A stretch of 42,726 nt of DNA. Source: a virus. Below, piece after piece: positions 2,885 to 22,400 of the stretch (the stretch's first letter is position 1; each line of letters begins with the position of its first letter). The stretch lies in the IMG/VR virus record IMGVR_UViG_3300043446_003742, positions 1 to 42,726 of that record. One strand, given 5' to 3'. A program made the position numbers and the translations under genes. Below the pieces are notes generated by a model. It did not search any database. It was not told the origin of the DNA and worked only from the letters and a program-made list of their open reading frames with translations.

Positions 2885-4117
2885 ATGCAGTTTTATCCCT
2901 ACCAGCAACGTGCGATTGATGCAATCAAGCAGCACAGTAAAGGTTGTTGCTATATTCCCACTGGTGGTGGTAAATCGGTTGTGATGATGCAGGATGCAAA
3001 GGACCGCATCCTTTCTGCACAACAACCTATGACTGTAGTTGTAGTCTCTCCGCGTATTCTTCTCACCAATCAACTCTGTGCAGAGTTTGAGGAATACCTG
3101 AAAGACTTTGATATTCAATATACCGAAGTTCACAGTGGAGAAACTCATAACTTCTCTACGACCAAACCCTATGCGATTCAACAACGCAATCAGGAAGTAA
3201 TCGCATCGGGTTCTCATCACTTTATCTTCACCACTTACAATTCTATTCATCGCATCAACGAATCTCAAATTGAGGTGAATGTTGTATATTTTGATGAGGC
3301 GCACCATTGTGTGAAGAAGTCGAACTTTGTGGGTATTGCTCACACTTCGCAGAACGCAGATAACGCTTATTTCTTCACTGCAACTCCCAAAATTGATAAC
3401 TCTCAACAGTCGATGAATAATACTGTTGTGTATGGACAGAAGATTATTTCTGTCCCTGCCACAGAACTGATTGCTGCTGGTAGTATCATTCCTCCTCAAG
3501 TGATCTCTTATGAGGCAGAGTCTATCCGCACAAAGGAGAACGCACACTTTGTCGATGCAGAGAATATCCTTGGTATTCTCAATGATATTGAGGATGATGT
3601 AACCCCCAAAGTTCTTGTTGCTTCTCCTAGCACCAAAGTCATTTGGAATATGTTTGCGGAGAGTGATTTGCTCAATGAACTCGAAGCAATGGGATTTGCT
3701 GTGTTTCATATCACTGCAAAACACGGTGCTTATGTAAACAAAAAGAAAGTCTCCCGTGAGAAGTTCTTTGAGTTGATGAATGAATATGGAAATGACCCTG
3801 ACCAAAAGATGATCGTGTTTCATTACTCTATTCTCAGTGAGGGTATCAATGTTCACGGTTTGACGCATTGTATTATGCTTCGCAATCTGCCGTGGATTGA
3901 AATGTGCCAAACGATTGGTCGAGTTGTGCGTATGCACCGCGATGACCGTAAAGCAATTCAGGAAGGTAAGATTGCAGCGGGTAATTACCAGTTCTACAAG
4001 AAGTCCTTTGGCAAGATTGTTGTTCCTGTGAGCAACAACTATGGTGATAAGATTGCCAATCAACTCCAGAATGTTGTTAATGCTGTCTTCGTGAAAGGGG
4101 AACTCTCTGCTACATAA
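2885..4117 (+). CDS. SF2 DEAH-box helicase
   Basis: This 410-residue protein carries the superfamily 2 helicase motifs in order: a Q-like start (FYPYQQRAID), motif I PTGGGKS at about residues 26-32, motif Ia VVVSPRILLTNQ near 53-64, motif II VVYFDEAHH near 133-141, motif III TATPK near 165-169, motif V-like SEGINVHG near 316-323 and motif VI QTIGRVVRM near 341-349. It should use ATP hydrolysis to unwind or remodel nucleic acid. It is shorter than T4 UvsW, lacks an obvious extra DNA-binding domain, and stands among unknown small genes. A role in recombination, repair or RNA work cannot be decided from sequence. Confidence 0.92.
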   Translation: MQFYPYQQRAIDAIKQHSKGCCYIPTGGGKSVVMMQDAKDRILSAQQPMTVVVVSPRILLTNQLCAEFEEYLKDFDIQYTEVHSGETHNFSTTKPYAIQQRNQEVIASGSHHFIFTTYNSIHRINESQIEVNVVYFDEAHHCVKKSNFVGIAHTSQNADNAYFFTATPKIDNSQQSMNNTVVYGQKIISVPATELIAAGSIIPPQVISYEAESIRTKENAHFVDAENILGILNDIEDDVTPKVLVASPSTKVIWNMFAESDLLNELEAMGFAVFHITAKHGAYVNKKKVSREKFFELMNEYGNDPDQKMIVFHYSILSEGINVHGLTHCIMLRNLPWIEMCQTIGRVVRMHRDDRKAIQEGKIAAGNYQFYKKSFGKIVVPVSNNYGDKIANQLQNVVNAVFVKGELSAT

Positions 4118-12926: not shown

Positions 12927-13084
12927 AACAAGAAGCACAACTGATTGATGCTCTCTATGAGGAACTTTATGCAAACAACTATTCACTCATCGAAAAGGTG
13001 ATTGAAGAGTATGTGTTGAACTTAAATCCTATTGAAATGAATACTCTTGAAGATTTGATTGTCAATAACTTTGGTATTGATTGA
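12923..13084 (+). CDS. Acidic helical protein, 53 aa
   Basis: The last gene of the tiny-gene chain starts in an ATGA overlap. The product (MKQEAQLIDALYEELYANNY..., then PIEMNTLEDLIVNNFGID) is acidic and helical. Its pattern loosely resembles the 85- and 61-residue acidic proteins at 5163 and 9127. The AT-rich origin-like region begins directly after its stop. Confidence 0.7.
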   Translation: MKQEAQLIDALYEELYANNYSLIEKVIEEYVLNLNPIEMNTLEDLIVNNFGID

Positions 13085-13246
13085 TTAAAGATATAATGAT
13101 ATTGTTATATTAAAAATGTATTAAAAAAGATATATGAGTGTTTTATCTTTTCCACAATAACTGTGGAAAAAGTATAATAAACTGTGGAAAACTTATGAAT
13201 CTTAAGTCTTTTAAGTGTCTATAAATGTGCTCAGGTCTTGTGATCT
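13085..13246 (+). other. AT-rich segment with three TTTTCCACA boxes (candidate origin)
   Basis: After the last tiny gene come about 60 nt of nearly pure A/T, then TTTTCCACA (13148-13156), its inverted copy TGTGGAAAA (13162-13170; 5-nt loop) and a further copy (13183-13191) 21 bp from the second. TTTTCCACA is the form I recall for cyanobacterial DnaA boxes. No gene is seen. An origin role is inferred, not shown. Confidence 0.55.
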
Positions 13247-13344
13247 TATAAATGCTCATAAATGCTCATAAATGCTTATAAATGCTTATAAATGCTCATA
13301 AATGCTTATAAATGCTTATAAATGCCTCAGAGTCTTGTGATCTT
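13230..13344 (+). repeat. Eight tandem 10-bp iterons (YATAAATGCT) inside a direct repeat
   Basis: Eight head-to-tail units (13247-13326) read TATAAATGCT or CATAAATGCT; the last ends in GCC. They are bracketed by direct copies of GTCTTGTGATCTT (13235-13247 and 13332-13344), each following ATAAATG..CTCAG. The 10-bp period puts every unit on the same face of DNA. Each unit also contains the core of the T4-type late promoter (TATAAAT). Replication iterons or a sigma/activator binding array are both possible. Confidence 0.9.
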
Positions 13345-13351
13345 GGCCCGC

Positions 13352-13380
13352 AGTCTATCAGCACTTGGAGATTTTGTCAA
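13352..13380 (-). promoter_or_regulatory. Minus-strand sigma70-type promoter facing the iterons
   Basis: On the minus strand TTGACA (13375-13380), a 17-nt spacer and TAGACT (13352-13357) form a near-consensus promoter. It points left into the iterons and TTTTCCACA boxes, where no minus-strand gene exists. A non-coding or replication-related transcript is the likely product. Confidence 0.65.
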
Positions 13381-13607
13381 GCACCCCCAGGACACATAAA
13401 AAACCCCCACACCTCACATTATAACAATATCACACTTCCGTTATATCATATAAGTCCACATAGCATACTCTCCCTACATATAAAACACTCTCAGACACTT
13501 CTATATGCCCCTACAAGGCACTTATAGACACTCTTAGGTCTTACACCCTATAATTCAGTTATCAAGGTTCTATCAGAACTCTTTTATTCTATCATAAAAT
13601 CTCCTAG
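13381..13607. other. Gene-free C-rich, G-poor stretch
   Basis: On the + strand this stretch has far more C than G (runs such as GCACCCCCAGG, AAAACCCCCACACC, CACTCT), unlike the coding regions. Short forward and reverse frames here have no phage-like composition or ribosome sites. No gene is called. The strand bias is consistent with an origin border or with regular minus-strand transcription. Confidence 0.6.
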
Positions 13608-13780: not shown

Positions 13781-14022
13781 AAGTTCATTCGTTATTAGAG
13801 AATGAATGTAATAGAATCTCTTATTGAGAATCAAAGATAATATCACTGAGAAATTCATTCGTGATTAGATAATGTTCGTATAGAATTTCATATAAAGCAC
13901 CTATTCTCAATAAGAACTCAAAGTTCATTCGTGATTAGATAATGTTCGTATAGAAGATAAACAATACATATTCTCTAAGTATTGATATAAAAGTTCATTC
14001 GTGATTAGATAATGTTCGTATA
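13781..14022 (+). repeat. Four 32-nt direct repeats at exact 70-bp period (CRISPR-like geometry)
   Basis: Copies begin at 13781, 13851, 13921 and 13991. Copies 2-4 share TTCATTCGTGATTAG followed by ATAATGTTCGTATA; copy 1 keeps AAGTTCATTCGT and then diverges into a perfect TTCATTC/GAATGAA hairpin. The 38-nt segments between copies differ from each other. No cas gene is present. Each repeat ends in TATAGAA/TATAAG, which resembles a -10 box, so tandem promoter or regulatory units are an alternative to a CRISPR-like array. Confidence 0.85.
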
Positions 14023-14089
14023 AGACTTTGCAGAGTATCGAAAAGTCATCAAATCCTAATGAAAAGTATTCGTGTATTCTGCACATGCG

Positions 14090-14403: not shown

Positions 14404-14828
14404 TTCTTATACATCAGTGAGTTTATTATCTCTTCGTGTAGATGTTCGTGTGATATAATTATACTTTGCGTTGTTCTTTATACATTCTTCGTGTCAGTTG
14501 TTGATATAAACTCAACAATGTGCTGGCAGTTACTATAAAGAACTACGTGGAGATATAATTATATCGTGCTGATTGTTCGTTGTGAGTATAAAGAACTGTG
14601 CTGATGTATTAGAATACACTAAGAATTGGTGGTAGTTAATATAAAGAATGACGAATAATAATACTTATTCGTTGTCAGTTCTTTATTCGTTATAGCAGCG
14701 ATTTTATGTTGTTTGTTATTGTTTATATCGGGCGTTGCGGTTATAAAAACGCTCCACTACCCTAATCTATAACAACTCCGTACACCGACCTCGATTTATC
14801 TCTCATTCAAAAAATTCCGGAGAAAAAA
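14404..14828 (+). repeat. Gene-free field of inverted repeats with 53-bp spacing
   Basis: TATAAAGAA occurs at 14534, 14587 and 14640, exactly 53 bp apart. A large inverted repeat pairs 14452-14482 with 14534-14565 (25 exact pairs) around an inner TTGTTGA/TCAACAA hairpin (14498-14518). A second long hairpin covers 14641-14686 (18 pairs with two bulges). The segment 14552-14565 is a perfect palindrome. A GCGTT/AACGC hairpin follows near 14750. No gene or tRNA is seen here. Structured RNA or protein-binding cruciforms are likely. Confidence 0.8.
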
Positions 14829-15339: not shown

Positions 15340-16107
15340 ATGGCAAAAGGATTTACTGTAAAAGCAGCAGCACCCAAACCCAAAGAAGGGGAATGGGATT
15401 ATGATGCGATTAAAGAACGAATGAAAGGTAAGAGTATTGTCTTCTGTTTACCTGGAAGAGGATGTTCTTTTATTTTTCTAAAGGCATTTGTACAACTTTG
15501 TTTTGATCTTGTACAAAATGGAATGAGTATTCAAATTAGTCAAGATTACTCATCAATGGTTAACTTTGCACGTTGTAAGTGTTTAGGTGCAAATGTTCTT
15601 CGTGGACCAAAGCAAGTTCCTTGGGATGGAAAACTTCAATATGATTATCAACTTTGGATTGACTCGGATATTGTCTTTGATTCTAACAAATTCTGGCAAC
15701 TCTGTGATCTTTCTTTGAGTGAAGATGGTACTGAGCGTGAGATTACTGCTGGATGGTATGCAACAGAAGATGGTCACACAACCTCTGTCGCACATTGGTT
15801 AGAAGAAGATGATTTCCGCAAAAATGGTGGAGTTATGAATCACGAAACTGTGGAATCAATCAGCAAGCGTCGTAAGCCATTCACTGTAGATTACACAGGT
15901 TTTGGGTGGGTTATGATTAAGAATGGTGTTTTTGAAAATCTTGAATATCCCTGGTTTGCTCCAAAGATGCAAGTCTTTGAGTCTGGTAATGTTCAAGATA
16001 TGTGTGGAGAGGATGTATCATTCTGTCTTGATGCAAAAGAAGCAGGATTTGAGATCTGGTGTGATCCTCGAATTCGTGTAGGACATGAGAAAACTCGTAT
16101 TATTTGA
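15340..16107 (+). CDS. GT-A fold glycosyltransferase-like protein
   Basis: This 255-residue protein has a nucleotide-binding-like start (SIVFCLPGRGCSFIFLKAF, about 32-50), a DxD-type motif in YQLWIDSDIVF (about 103-113), and a late GEDVSFCLDAKEAGFEIWCD (about 229-248) followed by DPRIRVGHEK. This is the order seen in GT-A/family 2-like glycosyltransferases, where the DxD binds a metal and sugar nucleotide. Similar proteins are common in cyanophages. It may modify DNA, virion proteins or host glycans; the target cannot be told. It is preceded by a late-like promoter and followed 12 nt later by a small basic gene. Confidence 0.75.
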   Translation: MAKGFTVKAAAPKPKEGEWDYDAIKERMKGKSIVFCLPGRGCSFIFLKAFVQLCFDLVQNGMSIQISQDYSSMVNFARCKCLGANVLRGPKQVPWDGKLQYDYQLWIDSDIVFDSNKFWQLCDLSLSEDGTEREITAGWYATEDGHTTSVAHWLEEDDFRKNGGVMNHETVESISKRRKPFTVDYTGFGWVMIKNGVFENLEYPWFAPKMQVFESGNVQDMCGEDVSFCLDAKEAGFEIWCDPRIRVGHEKTRII

Positions 16108-17087: not shown

Positions 17088-17489
17088 ATGCCTCTAGAGA
17101 GAGTAAGTCAGGGATTTAAAGACATTAGTATGACATTTCAGGCGAATCCCCTGAATAACGATCTTATTGCGTTAAAAAATGAAAGTGCTATTGCACGTTC
17201 AATACGTAATATTGTTTTTACTCTCCCTGGAGAAAAATTTTTCAATGAAAATTTTGGATCTAAGATTTCTAGAACTATTTTTGAAAATGTAGATAATATC
17301 TCAGCATCAATTATAGTCGATGAAATACGTCAATCAATTATAAACTATGAGACTAGAGTTCAATTGATTGATGTCCAAGCATATCCAGACTATGATAATG
17401 GTAGTTTTGATGTGGTACTTATATACAATATAATAGGTGCAGATGTTCCTGCACAACAGTTACAATTTGTTTTGCAACCAACTAGGTAA
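17088..17489 (+). CDS. gp25: Baseplate wedge subunit gp25 (lysozyme-like)
   Basis: The 133-residue length equals T4 gp25 (132). The family signatures are visible: a helix with AIARSIRNIVFTLPGEKFFN, then NFGSKISRTIFENVDN, and later IRQSIINYETRVQLIDVQAY. gp25 belongs to the central baseplate wedge and sheath-initiator family (the EFG/NFG motif is shared with type VI secretion TssE). A late promoter lies directly upstream, and gp6 follows 1 nt after the stop, as expected for wedge partners made together. Confidence 0.95.
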   Translation: MPLERVSQGFKDISMTFQANPLNNDLIALKNESAIARSIRNIVFTLPGEKFFNENFGSKISRTIFENVDNISASIIVDEIRQSIINYETRVQLIDVQAYPDYDNGSFDVVLIYNIIGADVPAQQLQFVLQPTR

Positions 17490-17490
17490 A

Positions 17491-19416
17491 ATGCCGTTAG
17501 TCAATTTTTCTAACCTAGATTTCGATCAGGTTAAAACAACAATTAGGGATTACTTAAAATCTAATTCTAACTTTACTGACTATGATTTTGAGGGATCTAA
17601 TCTCTCTACAATTATTGATGTTTTGGCATATAATACCTATATTACTTCATATAATGCAAATATGGTTGCAAATGAAGTTTTCATTGATAGTGCGACCTTG
17701 AGAGAGAACGTAGTTGCACTTGCAAGAAATATAGGATACATACCTCGTTCAAGAAAAGCAGCAAGAGCAACAATTAGTTTTTTCATAGACACGACAAACA
17801 TAACACCAATTCCAACATCAATTACTTTAAAAAAAGGTTCTGTGGCTTCAACAACAGGATCTTTTGGAAATCAATCTTTTGTATTTTCAATTCTCAATGA
17901 CATAACGGTCCCTGTCATTGATGGTATTGCATCATTTAATGATATTGAAATTTATCAAGGTGTTTTACTGACAAGTAATTTTACTGTTGATTCGAGACAA
18001 CCAAATCAAAGATACATTCTTCCAAATAGCGGAATTGATACTGATTTAATTTCTGTAGTTGTAAAATCTAGTCAACAAGCAACCCAACAAGTAAAATATA
18101 GTAAACAAGATAGTTTATTTGATATTAATAGAGAATCTAAAGTTTATTTTTTACAAGAAATTGAAGATGAAAGATATGAACTGATTTTTGGCGATGGAAT
18201 TTTTGGAAAAAAACTTGATCAAGATAATTATATTACCGCAAATTACATTGTTTCAAATGGCGATAGTGCAAATGGAATAAGTCAATTTACTTTTTCCGGC
18301 ACATTATCATACACAAGAAATTCAATAGAATATACAGTAACCTCTGGAATTTCTCTTTTAACAACAGGATTGACTTCCTCGGGAGGAGAAAATATTGAGT
18401 CTGTGGAGTCTATTAAAAAATATGCTCCAAGGATATACTCTTCTCAAAACAGAGCAGTAACGGCAAATGATTATGAAACTTTAATCCCAGAAAAAATTTA
18501 CCCAGAAACAGAGTCCATATCTGTTTTTGGGGGAGAAGAATTGATTCCGCCACAATATGGAAAAGTATTCATAAGTATTAAACCAAGATCTGGTGACTTT
18601 TTACCAAATCTTATAAAAGAAAATATTAAAAGAGACTTAAAAAAATATGCAGTTGCTGGAATAGTTCCGGAAATTTTAGACTTAAAATATTTGTATATAG
18701 AGTCTGATTCAAAAGTTTATTATAATACTAATCTTGCTCCGAGTTCTTCTTACGTTTCTAGTATCGTTCAAAGTAACGCAAATAAGTATGCAGAATCTAC
18801 AGAATTAAATAAATACGGTGCTAGATTTAAATATAGTAAATTTTTGAAGATAATTGATGATAGTCACGAATCAGTTACTTCAAATATAACAACTCTTCAA
18901 ATGAGAAGAGATTTGAGAGTGGTATTAAATAGTTTTGCGGAATATCAAATAGGATTTGGTAATGAATTTTATATTAAATCTATGAGTGGATATAATATAA
19001 GATCCTCTTCTTTTAGAGTTGCGGATATTCAACAAGATGTTTATCTTTCTGATATACCAAATTCAGATAGACTTACTGGATCTTTGTTTCTTTTTACTGT
19101 TCCTACAGTAAATTCATCTTCACCAACAATTCTAAGAAGAAATGTTGGAAATATTAATTATAAAAATGGAATAATAACATTAAATCCAATTAACATCTTA
19201 TCTGGAAAAATAAAAGATGGACAAACAATTATAGAAATTTCTGCAGTTCCTAAATCAAATGATGTAATAGGATTACAAGATCTTTATTTGCAACTAGATA
19301 TAAGTAAGAGTAATTTTGAAATGGTCATAGATGAAATTTCATCTGGTTTAGATCCTTCGGCATCAAATTACATAGTAACATCCAGCTACAGTAACGGGAA
19401 TTTAGTAAGATCATAA
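17491..19416 (+). CDS. gp6: Baseplate wedge protein gp6
   Basis: The start is ATG 17491, directly after the gp25 stop; an earlier in-frame ATG lies inside gp25. The 641 residues compare with 660 in T4. Matching blocks include TDYDFEGSNLSTIIDVLAYN (about 30-49), NIGYIPRSRKAA (about 88-99), an ANDYETLIPEKIYPE segment (about 330) and SIKPRSGDFLPNLIKENIKR. gp6 dimers join the wedges into the continuous ring of the baseplate and belong to the gpJ/TssF-like family. The next gene begins 1 nt after the stop. Confidence 0.95.
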   Translation: MPLVNFSNLDFDQVKTTIRDYLKSNSNFTDYDFEGSNLSTIIDVLAYNTYITSYNANMVANEVFIDSATLRENVVALARNIGYIPRSRKAARATISFFIDTTNITPIPTSITLKKGSVASTTGSFGNQSFVFSILNDITVPVIDGIASFNDIEIYQGVLLTSNFTVDSRQPNQRYILPNSGIDTDLISVVVKSSQQATQQVKYSKQDSLFDINRESKVYFLQEIEDERYELIFGDGIFGKKLDQDNYITANYIVSNGDSANGISQFTFSGTLSYTRNSIEYTVTSGISLLTTGLTSSGGENIESVESIKKYAPRIYSSQNRAVTANDYETLIPEKIYPETESISVFGGEELIPPQYGKVFISIKPRSGDFLPNLIKENIKRDLKKYAVAGIVPEILDLKYLYIESDSKVYYNTNLAPSSSYVSSIVQSNANKYAESTELNKYGARFKYSKFLKIIDDSHESVTSNITTLQMRRDLRVVLNSFAEYQIGFGNEFYIKSMSGYNIRSSSFRVADIQQDVYLSDIPNSDRLTGSLFLFTVPTVNSSSPTILRRNVGNINYKNGIITLNPINILSGKIKDGQTIIEISAVPKSNDVIGLQDLYLQLDISKSNFEMVIDEISSGLDPSASNYIVTSSYSNGNLVRS

Positions 19417-19417
19417 A

Positions 19418-22400
19418 ATGACAGACAAAAGAGTTCAATTTAATACTATTGTTCAGAATCAACTCCCTGCATATGTTAGAGAGGAGTTTCCTTTAATTTC
19501 TGAATTTTTAAAGCAGTATTATCTTTCACAAGAATTTCAAGGTGCTCCAACTGATTTAATTCAAAATATTGATCAATATATTCGATTAAATGAGACCACA
19601 AATCTTGTAGATTCTGTCATTTTAAAATCAAACATATCTTTTGTTGATACTACAATTGAAGTAGATTTAGGATTTTCTCCTACAGGAACAAATGGGTTTC
19701 CGGATTCTTATGGATTAATTAAAATTGATGATGAAATTATTTTATATACCTCAAAAACTTCCACTGCAAATTCTGCTTCATTTAATGGATGTATAAGAGG
19801 ATTTAGTGGCATTTCTTCTTTGAACGATCAAACTGCCACTGGAGAATTGGTATTTTCTACCAGTTCTGCGGAAGAGCACATTGGAACAGAATATAATTCG
19901 GATGGATCAATAAAACAAAAGGGATCAACGATATTAAACTTAAGTAACTTATTCTTAAAACAATTTTTACTTAAGACAAAGTATCAACTTCTTCCGGGTT
20001 TAGAAGACAGAGAATTATTTTCTGACTTAAATGAAGATCTTTTTATAAAACAGTCTAAAGATTTTTATGGAAGTAAAGGCACTGACGAGTCTTTTAAAAT
20101 TCTCTTCAAGTCTCTTTATGACGAAGAAGTAAAAATTATTAAACCTAAAGATTTTCTTCTTACTCCATCAAATGCACAATACACTATCACAAATGATTTA
20201 GTTGTTGAAAGTATTTCAGGAGATCCTCTAGAACTTAAAAACTCAACACTATATCAAAATTCATATCTTGATAATTTTACAAAATCATATGCACCTATCA
20301 CATCAGTAGAAAAAATATCTTCTAGAGATGGAAAAACTTTTTATAAACTTAGTGTAGATGCTGGTTATAATAGGGATATTGTAGTTGATGGAGCAACTTA
20401 TGGAAACTTTTTAGTTCACCCAAAAACTAAAGTAATAGGAGAAGTATCTCCAAATTCAACAATTCTTGATGTAGACTCAACGGTAGGATTTCCAACTTCT
20501 GGGCAACTTTTTGCTAGTTATAATGACGGAACAGCGGGAGTTATTTCATATACATCCAAATCATTAACTCAATTTTATGGTTGTTCAAATATTGTAAAAT
20601 CTATTAATAATGCAGAGAATGTTGGATTAAACACTTATGCATCAAATAGTGATGGAAGTATTAAAGTCAGGATCAATTCTGTTATTAGTGGTTTAGATGT
20701 GAGAAGTGATACTCGTTATCTATCTCCCAAAGAATCTATACAGATAAAAACATTAGGAGTTTCTGCAAAAGACTTTATATCAAAAAACTGGTATTATAAT
20801 ATTTCATCCAGATACGAAGTTCAAGGTAGTCCAGTTTTAATAGATACCTCCGATAAAACATACAGATTAACCCTGAAAACTCCCCACTATCTTAAGATTG
20901 GAGATTCTATATCAATTGTAGATAGTAATAATGCATCGAAGTCCTCTACTGTAGTTGATATTAACTCAGAGTATTCAATAACCATTAGAGATCAAGGTGA
21001 ACTATCTTTATCAACAAACTACACTATTAAAAGAAATATTCTAAAACCAATTTCAAATACATTTTCAAATTTATCTTCATATACATCAAATGTTCAAAAT
21101 GTATATAAGGATTCTGGAAAAACTTTAGTAGCATCTAATTCAATTCCATCATATTATCGCCAACCATTAAATGTAATTGATAGATCTATTACTTTTTCCG
21201 GAACTTTTATTGGAGATGAATTTGTAATATCAAATAAAGATCACGGTTTTTATACTGGAGATGTAGTATATTATACTCCACAAAAGGTTACTACAACATC
21301 ATTTAGTGATGATGGAATTGAAATTCAACAAACATCTATACAGTCTTCTTTGTTTGATGAAGGACTTTATTTCATCAAACGAGTTAACGAAACCGCAGTT
21401 AAATTTGCAAAAAGTAAATTTGACATTTACTATTCTGAATTATATAAGGATGACTCATCTAAATCTAAGTATGTCAAATTAACTGAATCTAAAAGTGTTT
21501 CTGATAACAAAATAGAAATTTATAAATTTAATTCAAAAACAGTATTACCACAAAAAATACTTAGGGAAATACAAGATCCAATAAGTGATGGAAAAACCTA
21601 TCCAACCTCCCCAGGATTTAATGGTATACTTGTCAATGGAGTGGAAATTTTAAACTACAAATCAAGCGATGTAATTTATCATGGAAAAATAAACTCCATT
21701 GATATTTTATCGCCGGGATTGGATTACGATGTCATCAATCCACCGGAATTAAAAATTAGCGATAGAATTGGAACAGGAGCTACTGGATATGTTTCTGTTA
21801 ATGGTTCATTAAGAGAAATACAGATTATAGATCCTGGATTTGACTATGTTGATGTCCCAACAGTTAAGATTACTGGTGGTAATGGATCAGGAGCTTTAGC
21901 TTCTGTAAATATGAAGTTAATAGATTATTATGCAAGTTTTAATTCAGATTCCGCATCAAATCAAATTGGAATAGGTGTGACGGTTTCAACTATAGGATTT
22001 AGCACTTATCATAAATTTAGAGATGGAGAAACTGTAATATATGATCCAAAATATCAACAATCTGTAGGTGGTATAACCACAAACTCAACTTATTTTGTTT
22101 CAGTAAAAGATTCTAATACAGTAAAACTTCATAAAACATTTGATGATGCAGTTTCTGGAATCAACACTATTACTCTAACTTCTTATGGATCTGGAATACA
22201 TTACCTTAAATCGTATAATAAAAAGTCAGTAGTTGGTTCCATCAACGTAGTTTCTGGTGGTTCTAATTATCAAAATAAAAAAAGAACAACAGATATTACC
22301 GGAATAAGTACATCTTTAAATCAAGTTACTATCACCAACCATGATTATCAATCCGGAGAAATCGTAAAGTATGCAACAGAGGGTGCTTCTATTGGTGGTT

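Follow-up and report, generated by a model that had tools for sequence, protein, structure and literature searches.

Results

The locus and its setting

The window, i.e., the whole stretch of DNA analysed here, is a linear IMG/VR virus record of 42,726 bases; being linear at 42.7 kb, the contig is a fragment of a phage genome. It belongs to a T4-type cyanophage, as its gp25 (at 17088) and gp6 (at 17437) match those of S-SM2, Bellamy and SynMITS9220M01. The protein encoded at 9644-10066 matches the anti-restriction-labelled PHROG family phrog_36653 (E 4e-36).

The features in Table 1 centre on a cluster of DnaA boxes in a non-coding gap that holds no good genes, with a minus-strand promoter 3.7 kb upstream of gp25. 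The initial annotation had described, from the letters alone, three 9-mers (an inverted pair with a 5-nt loop and a third copy 21 bp away), a nearly pure A/T stretch, a tandem array, a promoter facing them and a strand-biased flank. We confirm this observation: all three 9-mers are exact, the A/T stretch beside them is less stable than any other 60-mer of the window, and the flank is strongly skewed. Several further repeats were observed in the neighbourhood. Four copies of TTCATTCGTGATTAGATAATGTTCGTATAGAA with a 70-bp spacing (13781-14025) share the intergenic region with the boxes, inverted copies of TTCTCAATAA (13821-13830 and 13904-13913, 83 bp apart) lie about 630 bp to the right of the boxes, and three repeats around ACTATAAAGAACT, spaced by 53 bp, occupy 14521-14668.

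Table 1. Features of the candidate element and its surroundings in the window, and recurring box arrangements in host genomes (L-numbered loci).
Feature	Position	Strand	Remarks
Helicase	2885-4117		matches phrog_16; upstream of the element in most complete phages compared; differs from their UvsW gene
A/T-rich tract, candidate DNA unwinding element	13075-13134		least stable 60-mer of the 42.7-kb window by nearest-neighbour energy
DnaA box 1, TTTTCCACA	13148-13156	+	exact match to the cyanobacterial DnaA-box consensus (PMC4674748)
DnaA box 2, TTTTCCACA	13162-13170	-	exact match; inverted to box 1, 5-nt gap
DnaA box 3, TTTTCCACA	13183-13191	-	exact match; 21 bp from box 2, same orientation
Second leader-motif copy, GATCACAAGACCTGAGCACATTTATAG	13212-13248	-	second nhmmer match in the window, E 7e-5 to 2e-3
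10-bp tandem array, CTTATAAATG	13245-13325		8.1 copies (Tandem Repeats Finder); expansion of the leader's CATTTATAAG motif
Conserved leader, CAAGATCACAAGACTCTGAGGCATTTATAAG	13315-13346	-	just downstream of the promoter; kept in relatives with and without boxes
Promoter -10 hexamer TAGACT, TG-extended	13352-13357	-	TAnnnT in 45/48 loci, TG in 45/48
Promoter -35 hexamer TTGACA	13375-13380	-	TTGACA kept in 46/48 loci
C-rich, G-poor flank	13376-13560		upstream of the minus-strand promoter; GC skew -0.595
Host inverted pair	L483:1470-1522, L485:1475-1527, L486:1525-1577, L487:1451-1503, L494:1486-1538		
Second host cluster	L484:1175-1484, L489:1069-1379, L488:1027-1445		

These boxes are the only exact TTTTCCACA copies in the contig and fall within 44 bp of each other, so that the 9-mers are not scattered at random (Poisson scan estimate for the three-box cluster, P ~4e-7). 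Dinucleotide shuffles predict 0.96 exact copies per window, the pattern read backwards is absent from the contig, and none of 300 order-3 Markov sequences placed three copies within 60 bp. Copies with one mismatch number 24 against 24.9 expected and are scattered at chance level; hence, the signal resides in the exact, clustered copies. The 21-bp spacing between boxes 2 and 3 is also seen in S-SM2 and in the loci L021, L043 and L066.

The tandem array, claimed earlier as iterons, is real, but it was absent from all other loci fetched and we therefore reject it as a set of conserved initiator-site iterons. It is flanked by the two leader copies and is a window-specific expansion of the CATTTATAAG motif of the leader. 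Each of its units is also close to NATAAATA, the late-promoter motif of cyanophages (PMC2984593).

A promoter and leader conserved in T4-like cyanophages

In the window, TTGACA and TAGACT are separated by 17 nt, and the spacer is 17 nt in 39 of the 48 loci compared and 18 nt in the rest. Promoter-like sites are no commoner in the window than in shuffled sequences (17 versus 15.8), so that the support for the promoter facing the boxes is its conservation. An mRNA is an unlikely product of this promoter, since the median longest open reading frame on the minus strand behind the promoter is 24 aa compared with 35 aa in shuffles; on this ground a protein-coding transcript was rejected. An Rfam search of the window returned no family match except a tRNA. 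Cyanomyoviruses have no motA and are thought to rely, early in infection, on the unmodified sigma-70 polymerase of the host (PMC2984593), which fits a TTGACA promoter.

The conserved unit reads, on the minus strand, TTGACA-N17 or N18-TGnTAnnnT, followed by a leader resembling AAGATCACAAGACC..GAGCACATTTAAAAG and then by the box zone and A/T tract. Of 12 complete T4-like cyanophage genomes, 10 contain it, each as a single copy that precedes gene 25 by 2.7-7.5 kb; in S-PM2 it lies at 19231-19348 of NC_006820, and in Syn9 at 52553-52702 of NC_008296. Neither of our two profiles detected an element in the Prochlorococcus phages P-SSM2 and P-HM2, which also have no box cluster, and the T4 genome lacks both the unit and a box cluster. 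Model a, the first of these, was built from 15 loci with boxes and ends before the boxes; it detected the unit in almost every locus whose flank was long enough, on what is the minus strand with respect to the structural genes, and matched the box-less Bellamy and SynMITS9220M01 as well. Model b extends over the boxes of the five phages on which it was trained, and part of its score on box-bearing loci is therefore owed to the boxes.

The densest cluster of exact boxes lies a few kb upstream of gp25 in S-SM2, S-PM2, Syn9, S-SM1, S-SSM5, Syn1 and DSL-LC03, and in S-RIM50 a pair placed likewise is the top cluster by exact copies; the complete genomes of Bellamy and SynMITS9220M01 contain no exact-box cluster. 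Among 33 metagenomic loci picked independently of the boxes, through the neighbouring gene at 15340, the arrangement of the window type occurs in 13, at 1.7-3.1 kb upstream of that gene; L059 carries an array at a different spot, and most of the others are without the arrangement. Moreover, at least 120 loci emerged when 2.9 million viral contigs were scanned for inverted boxes only. Promoter profiles built from other loci matched 64 of the 120 listed (54 at E <=1e-4), and in 59 of these 64 exact boxes lie 40-350 nt downstream, on the transcribed side. The 120 loci may include duplicates, and the two sets overlap slightly, since a few of the 120 lie on contigs of the gene-15340 set. Thus, the expected recurrence in related phages holds for the composite of boxes, A/T tract and facing promoter, and does not hold for the iterons.

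In the S-PM2 record (NC_006820; L496), annotations of tRNA-Asn and tRNA-Leu overlap the DnaA-box cluster (19177-19333). ARAGORN found no tRNA in S-PM2 18000-21000, and this annotation is possibly misplaced.

The A/T tract differs in prominence among the phages. In S-SM2, Bellamy and SynMITS9220M01 it ranks among roughly the least stable 0.01-0.04% of the genome; it is weaker in phages of the S-PM2/Syn9/S-SM1 type, where 0.2-3% of the genome is less stable and the tract is on the promoter side of the boxes. Its ATTAAAAATGTATTAAAAAA segment is nearly identical in the distant phage S-PM2.

The box slot is phased and optional

Without any motif chosen beforehand, TTTTCCACA emerged as the most repeated 9-mer of the unit, with at least two copies in 16 of 43 non-redundant loci, five of which (S-PM2, S-SM1, S-SSM5, Syn1 and S-RIM50) were added by hand from genomes with already known clusters. 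The next independent motif that is not A/T, ATTCTCAAT, reached 4 of the 43. The preferred box spacings of direct pairs are 11-12, 20-22 and 42-44 bp; those of inverted pairs are 12-14, 22-25 and 33-34 bp. The best period is 10.5 bp (R=0.87 for 35 same-orientation pairs and R=0.77 for 63 inverted pairs), i.e., the helical phasing that cooperative DnaA binding would need, although the loci are related and not independent, so that formal p-values overstate it.

An exact box is present in 17 of the 42 loci that have the unit and enough sequence. In seven loci the same zone carries TTCTCAATA, which is nearly exclusive with TTTTCCACA (DSL-LC03 carries both), and the remaining unit-bearing loci have neither; ATTCTCAATAA fills the slot in some box-less phages (L022, L047, L070 and others). 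Clusters hold two to five exact boxes in many genomes, and seven across two neighbouring clusters in DSL-LC03. Since over half of the relatives keep the promoter and A/T tract without boxes, DnaA is apparently not needed for the class, and the boxes are not the core of the element. Judged by conservation, the stable core consists of promoter, leader and A/T tract, to which the box slot adds a variable, optional module.

DnaA boxes of the hosts

As the initial annotation had claimed, the phage boxes are of cyanobacterial form: TTTTCCACA is the cyanobacterial DnaA box, which DnaA has been shown to bind in Cyanothece and Anabaena (PMC4674748). Among picocyanobacterial loci with full flanks, 12 of 20 have it close to dnaN, for the most part upstream of the gene, compared with 0 of 20 for the backwards control, and at three more loci it lies within ~150 bp of a chromosome end adjoining dnaN.

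Two other host arrangements were observed. An exact inverted pair, TTTTCCACA-N35-TGTGGAAAA, is intergenic and far from dnaN, and is kept where its flanks diverge; it is possibly a regulatory or titration site for DnaA. The second recurring cluster comprises two TTTTCCACA copies 11 bp apart and a third ~300-400 bp away.

Discussion

T4-like cyanophages are abundant marine viruses, and how their DNA replication begins has apparently not been settled experimentally in the literature, as far as the records retrieved tell. Our literature search returned no link between cyanophages and DnaA boxes: both terms met only in genome studies of Nostoc and Prochlorococcus, and publications with both 'cyanomyovirus' and 'DnaA' were unrelated by title and abstract. 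We herein describe a non-coding element that is a strong candidate for the site where viral DNA replication starts. Its make-up, which follows that of oriF and oriG of T4, suggests that it probably serves T4-like Synechococcus phages as an early origin of replication. The origin hallmarks claimed in the initial annotation are borne out in part: the composite is a recurring element, but the iterons are not conserved, the boxes are not its core, and the skew does not point to it. The minimum that would be expected at a DnaA-box origin was not found; instead, several phages show a maximum of the detrended cumulative GC skew close to the locus. This maximum falls where the structural module starts, whether or not the genomes have boxes, and is confounded by gene modules; neither whole-genome GC skew nor third-position skew supports an origin at the locus.

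The features described above lead us to infer that the locus is transcribed, primes synthesis through an R-loop, binds DnaA and acts as an origin. Host sigma-70 RNA polymerase would start at the minus-strand promoter (13380-13352) and transcribe leftwards, crossing the leader repeats, then the DnaA boxes and finally the A/T tract, where the non-coding RNA would stay paired as an R-loop. The RNA could then prime leading-strand synthesis while the other strand is exposed to the phage primosome. Where it occupies the phased boxes, host DnaA may help to open the A/T tract or may tie firing to the host initiator; this step would be limited to the phage of the window and ~40-45% of its relatives. 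We consider the chances about even that the element is such a T4-style, R-loop-primed origin at which host DnaA aids opening or regulates timing. The wider proposal, that each T4-like Synechococcus phage has one R-loop-type origin with a fixed promoter and tract and an interchangeable initiator slot (filled by DnaA boxes, by ATTCTCAATAA, or by nothing), is put forward more tentatively. If true, lytic T4-type phages would begin their own replication by recruiting the initiator of the host.

The promoter could also belong to a regulatory region and not to an origin, giving rise to a short non-coding or antisense RNA, with DnaA at the boxes serving as a repressor, roadblock or timer. The promoter and leader are indeed better conserved than the boxes, located downstream on the transcribed side at a distance of 40-350 nt, and S-PM2 makes the antisense RNA CfrI, so that such RNAs are known in T4-like cyanophages (PMC2984593). 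Nonetheless, the window gave no Rfam match apart from the tRNA, the variable number and content of the box zone ill suit a functional RNA, and this reading leaves unexplained why the RNA would run into the least stable DNA of the window; hence, we regard it as unlikely. A transcript function of a narrower kind, in which the inverted TTTTCCACA/TGTGGAAAA pair folds into an RNA hairpin or terminator, is scarcely credible. An inverted pair is present in the window and often elsewhere, but many arrays, among them those of S-SM2, L021, L043, L066, L023 and Syn1, have direct exact copies only and no exact inverted pair, and a terminator scan was negative at the boxes; we have rejected this possibility.

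Other explanations keep the boxes as protein-binding sites. They might be bound by a phage protein whose site resembles a DnaA box. The near-exclusive swap of TTTTCCACA for TTCTCAATA in the same zone of seven loci suggests a changing DNA-binding protein, and other phages use ATTCTCAATAA in this slot; however, TTTTCCACA is identical to the cyanobacterial DnaA box (PMC4674748) and marks the regions upstream of host dnaN, and its helical-phase spacing is what DnaA arrays would show, which makes a phage protein quite improbable. Alternatively, the boxes could be decoys which, multiplied by the number of phage genome copies, titrate DnaA and halt initiation in the host. The clusters of two to five exact boxes in many genomes, or seven in DSL-LC03, and the high phage copy number late in infection, which would multiply them, are compatible with this, yet the boxes are few per genome, many relatives have none, and titration needs no fixed place beside a promoter and an A/T tract. 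We therefore consider a decoy function very improbable.

Returning to the origin with an optional DnaA step, action of host DnaA at the element would tie phage replication to the host initiator and could link infection to the host cell cycle. The element also offers one precise, conserved locus to test in the cultured phages S-PM2, Syn9, S-SM1, S-SSM5 and S-RIM50.

Part of this finding may already be known, given that a single theta origin was predicted earlier for Syn9 (cited in PMC2984593). That prediction agrees with ours in placing one origin in a T4-like cyanophage genome, but the review citing it is silent on DnaA. The likeness to a cyanobacterial oriC lies in the clustered boxes adjoining an A/T-rich tract: in the window, three exact host-consensus copies within 44 bp lie beside 13075-13134. 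Unlike oriC, however, the phage element has few boxes, does not lie beside dnaN, belongs to a lytic phage of a group with its own T4-type replisome, and can dispense with the boxes across relatives.

The closest parallel is with T4, whose minimal origins oriF (ori(uvsY)) and oriG (ori(34)) consist of a promoter and an A/T-rich unwinding element, the transcript forming an R-loop that primes synthesis (PMC3016281). The cyanophage element has the same order of promoter and downstream A/T-rich unwinding element, and gene 25 is a near neighbour of oriF too (PMC3016281), although it is kilobases away in the phages (3.7 kb in the window) and ~80 bp away in T4. The flanking genes of oriF, with uvsW on one side and gene 25, are not reproduced. 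Synteny through the helicase at 2885-4117 was rejected, as in S-SM2, S-PM2, Syn9, DSL-LC03 and Bellamy the gene that best matches T4 UvsW is a different one at a distant position; hence, gene 25 is the only neighbour in common with oriF. The cyanophage promoter is not a MotA-dependent middle-mode promoter: in place of a MotA box it has the host-type TTGACA, and cyanomyoviruses are without motA (PMC2984593). Furthermore, in contrast to oriF and oriG, one element was found per cyanophage genome, and host DnaA boxes are added to it. If host DnaA acts there, the element would be a T4-type origin carrying an added bacterial initiator site as a swappable part.
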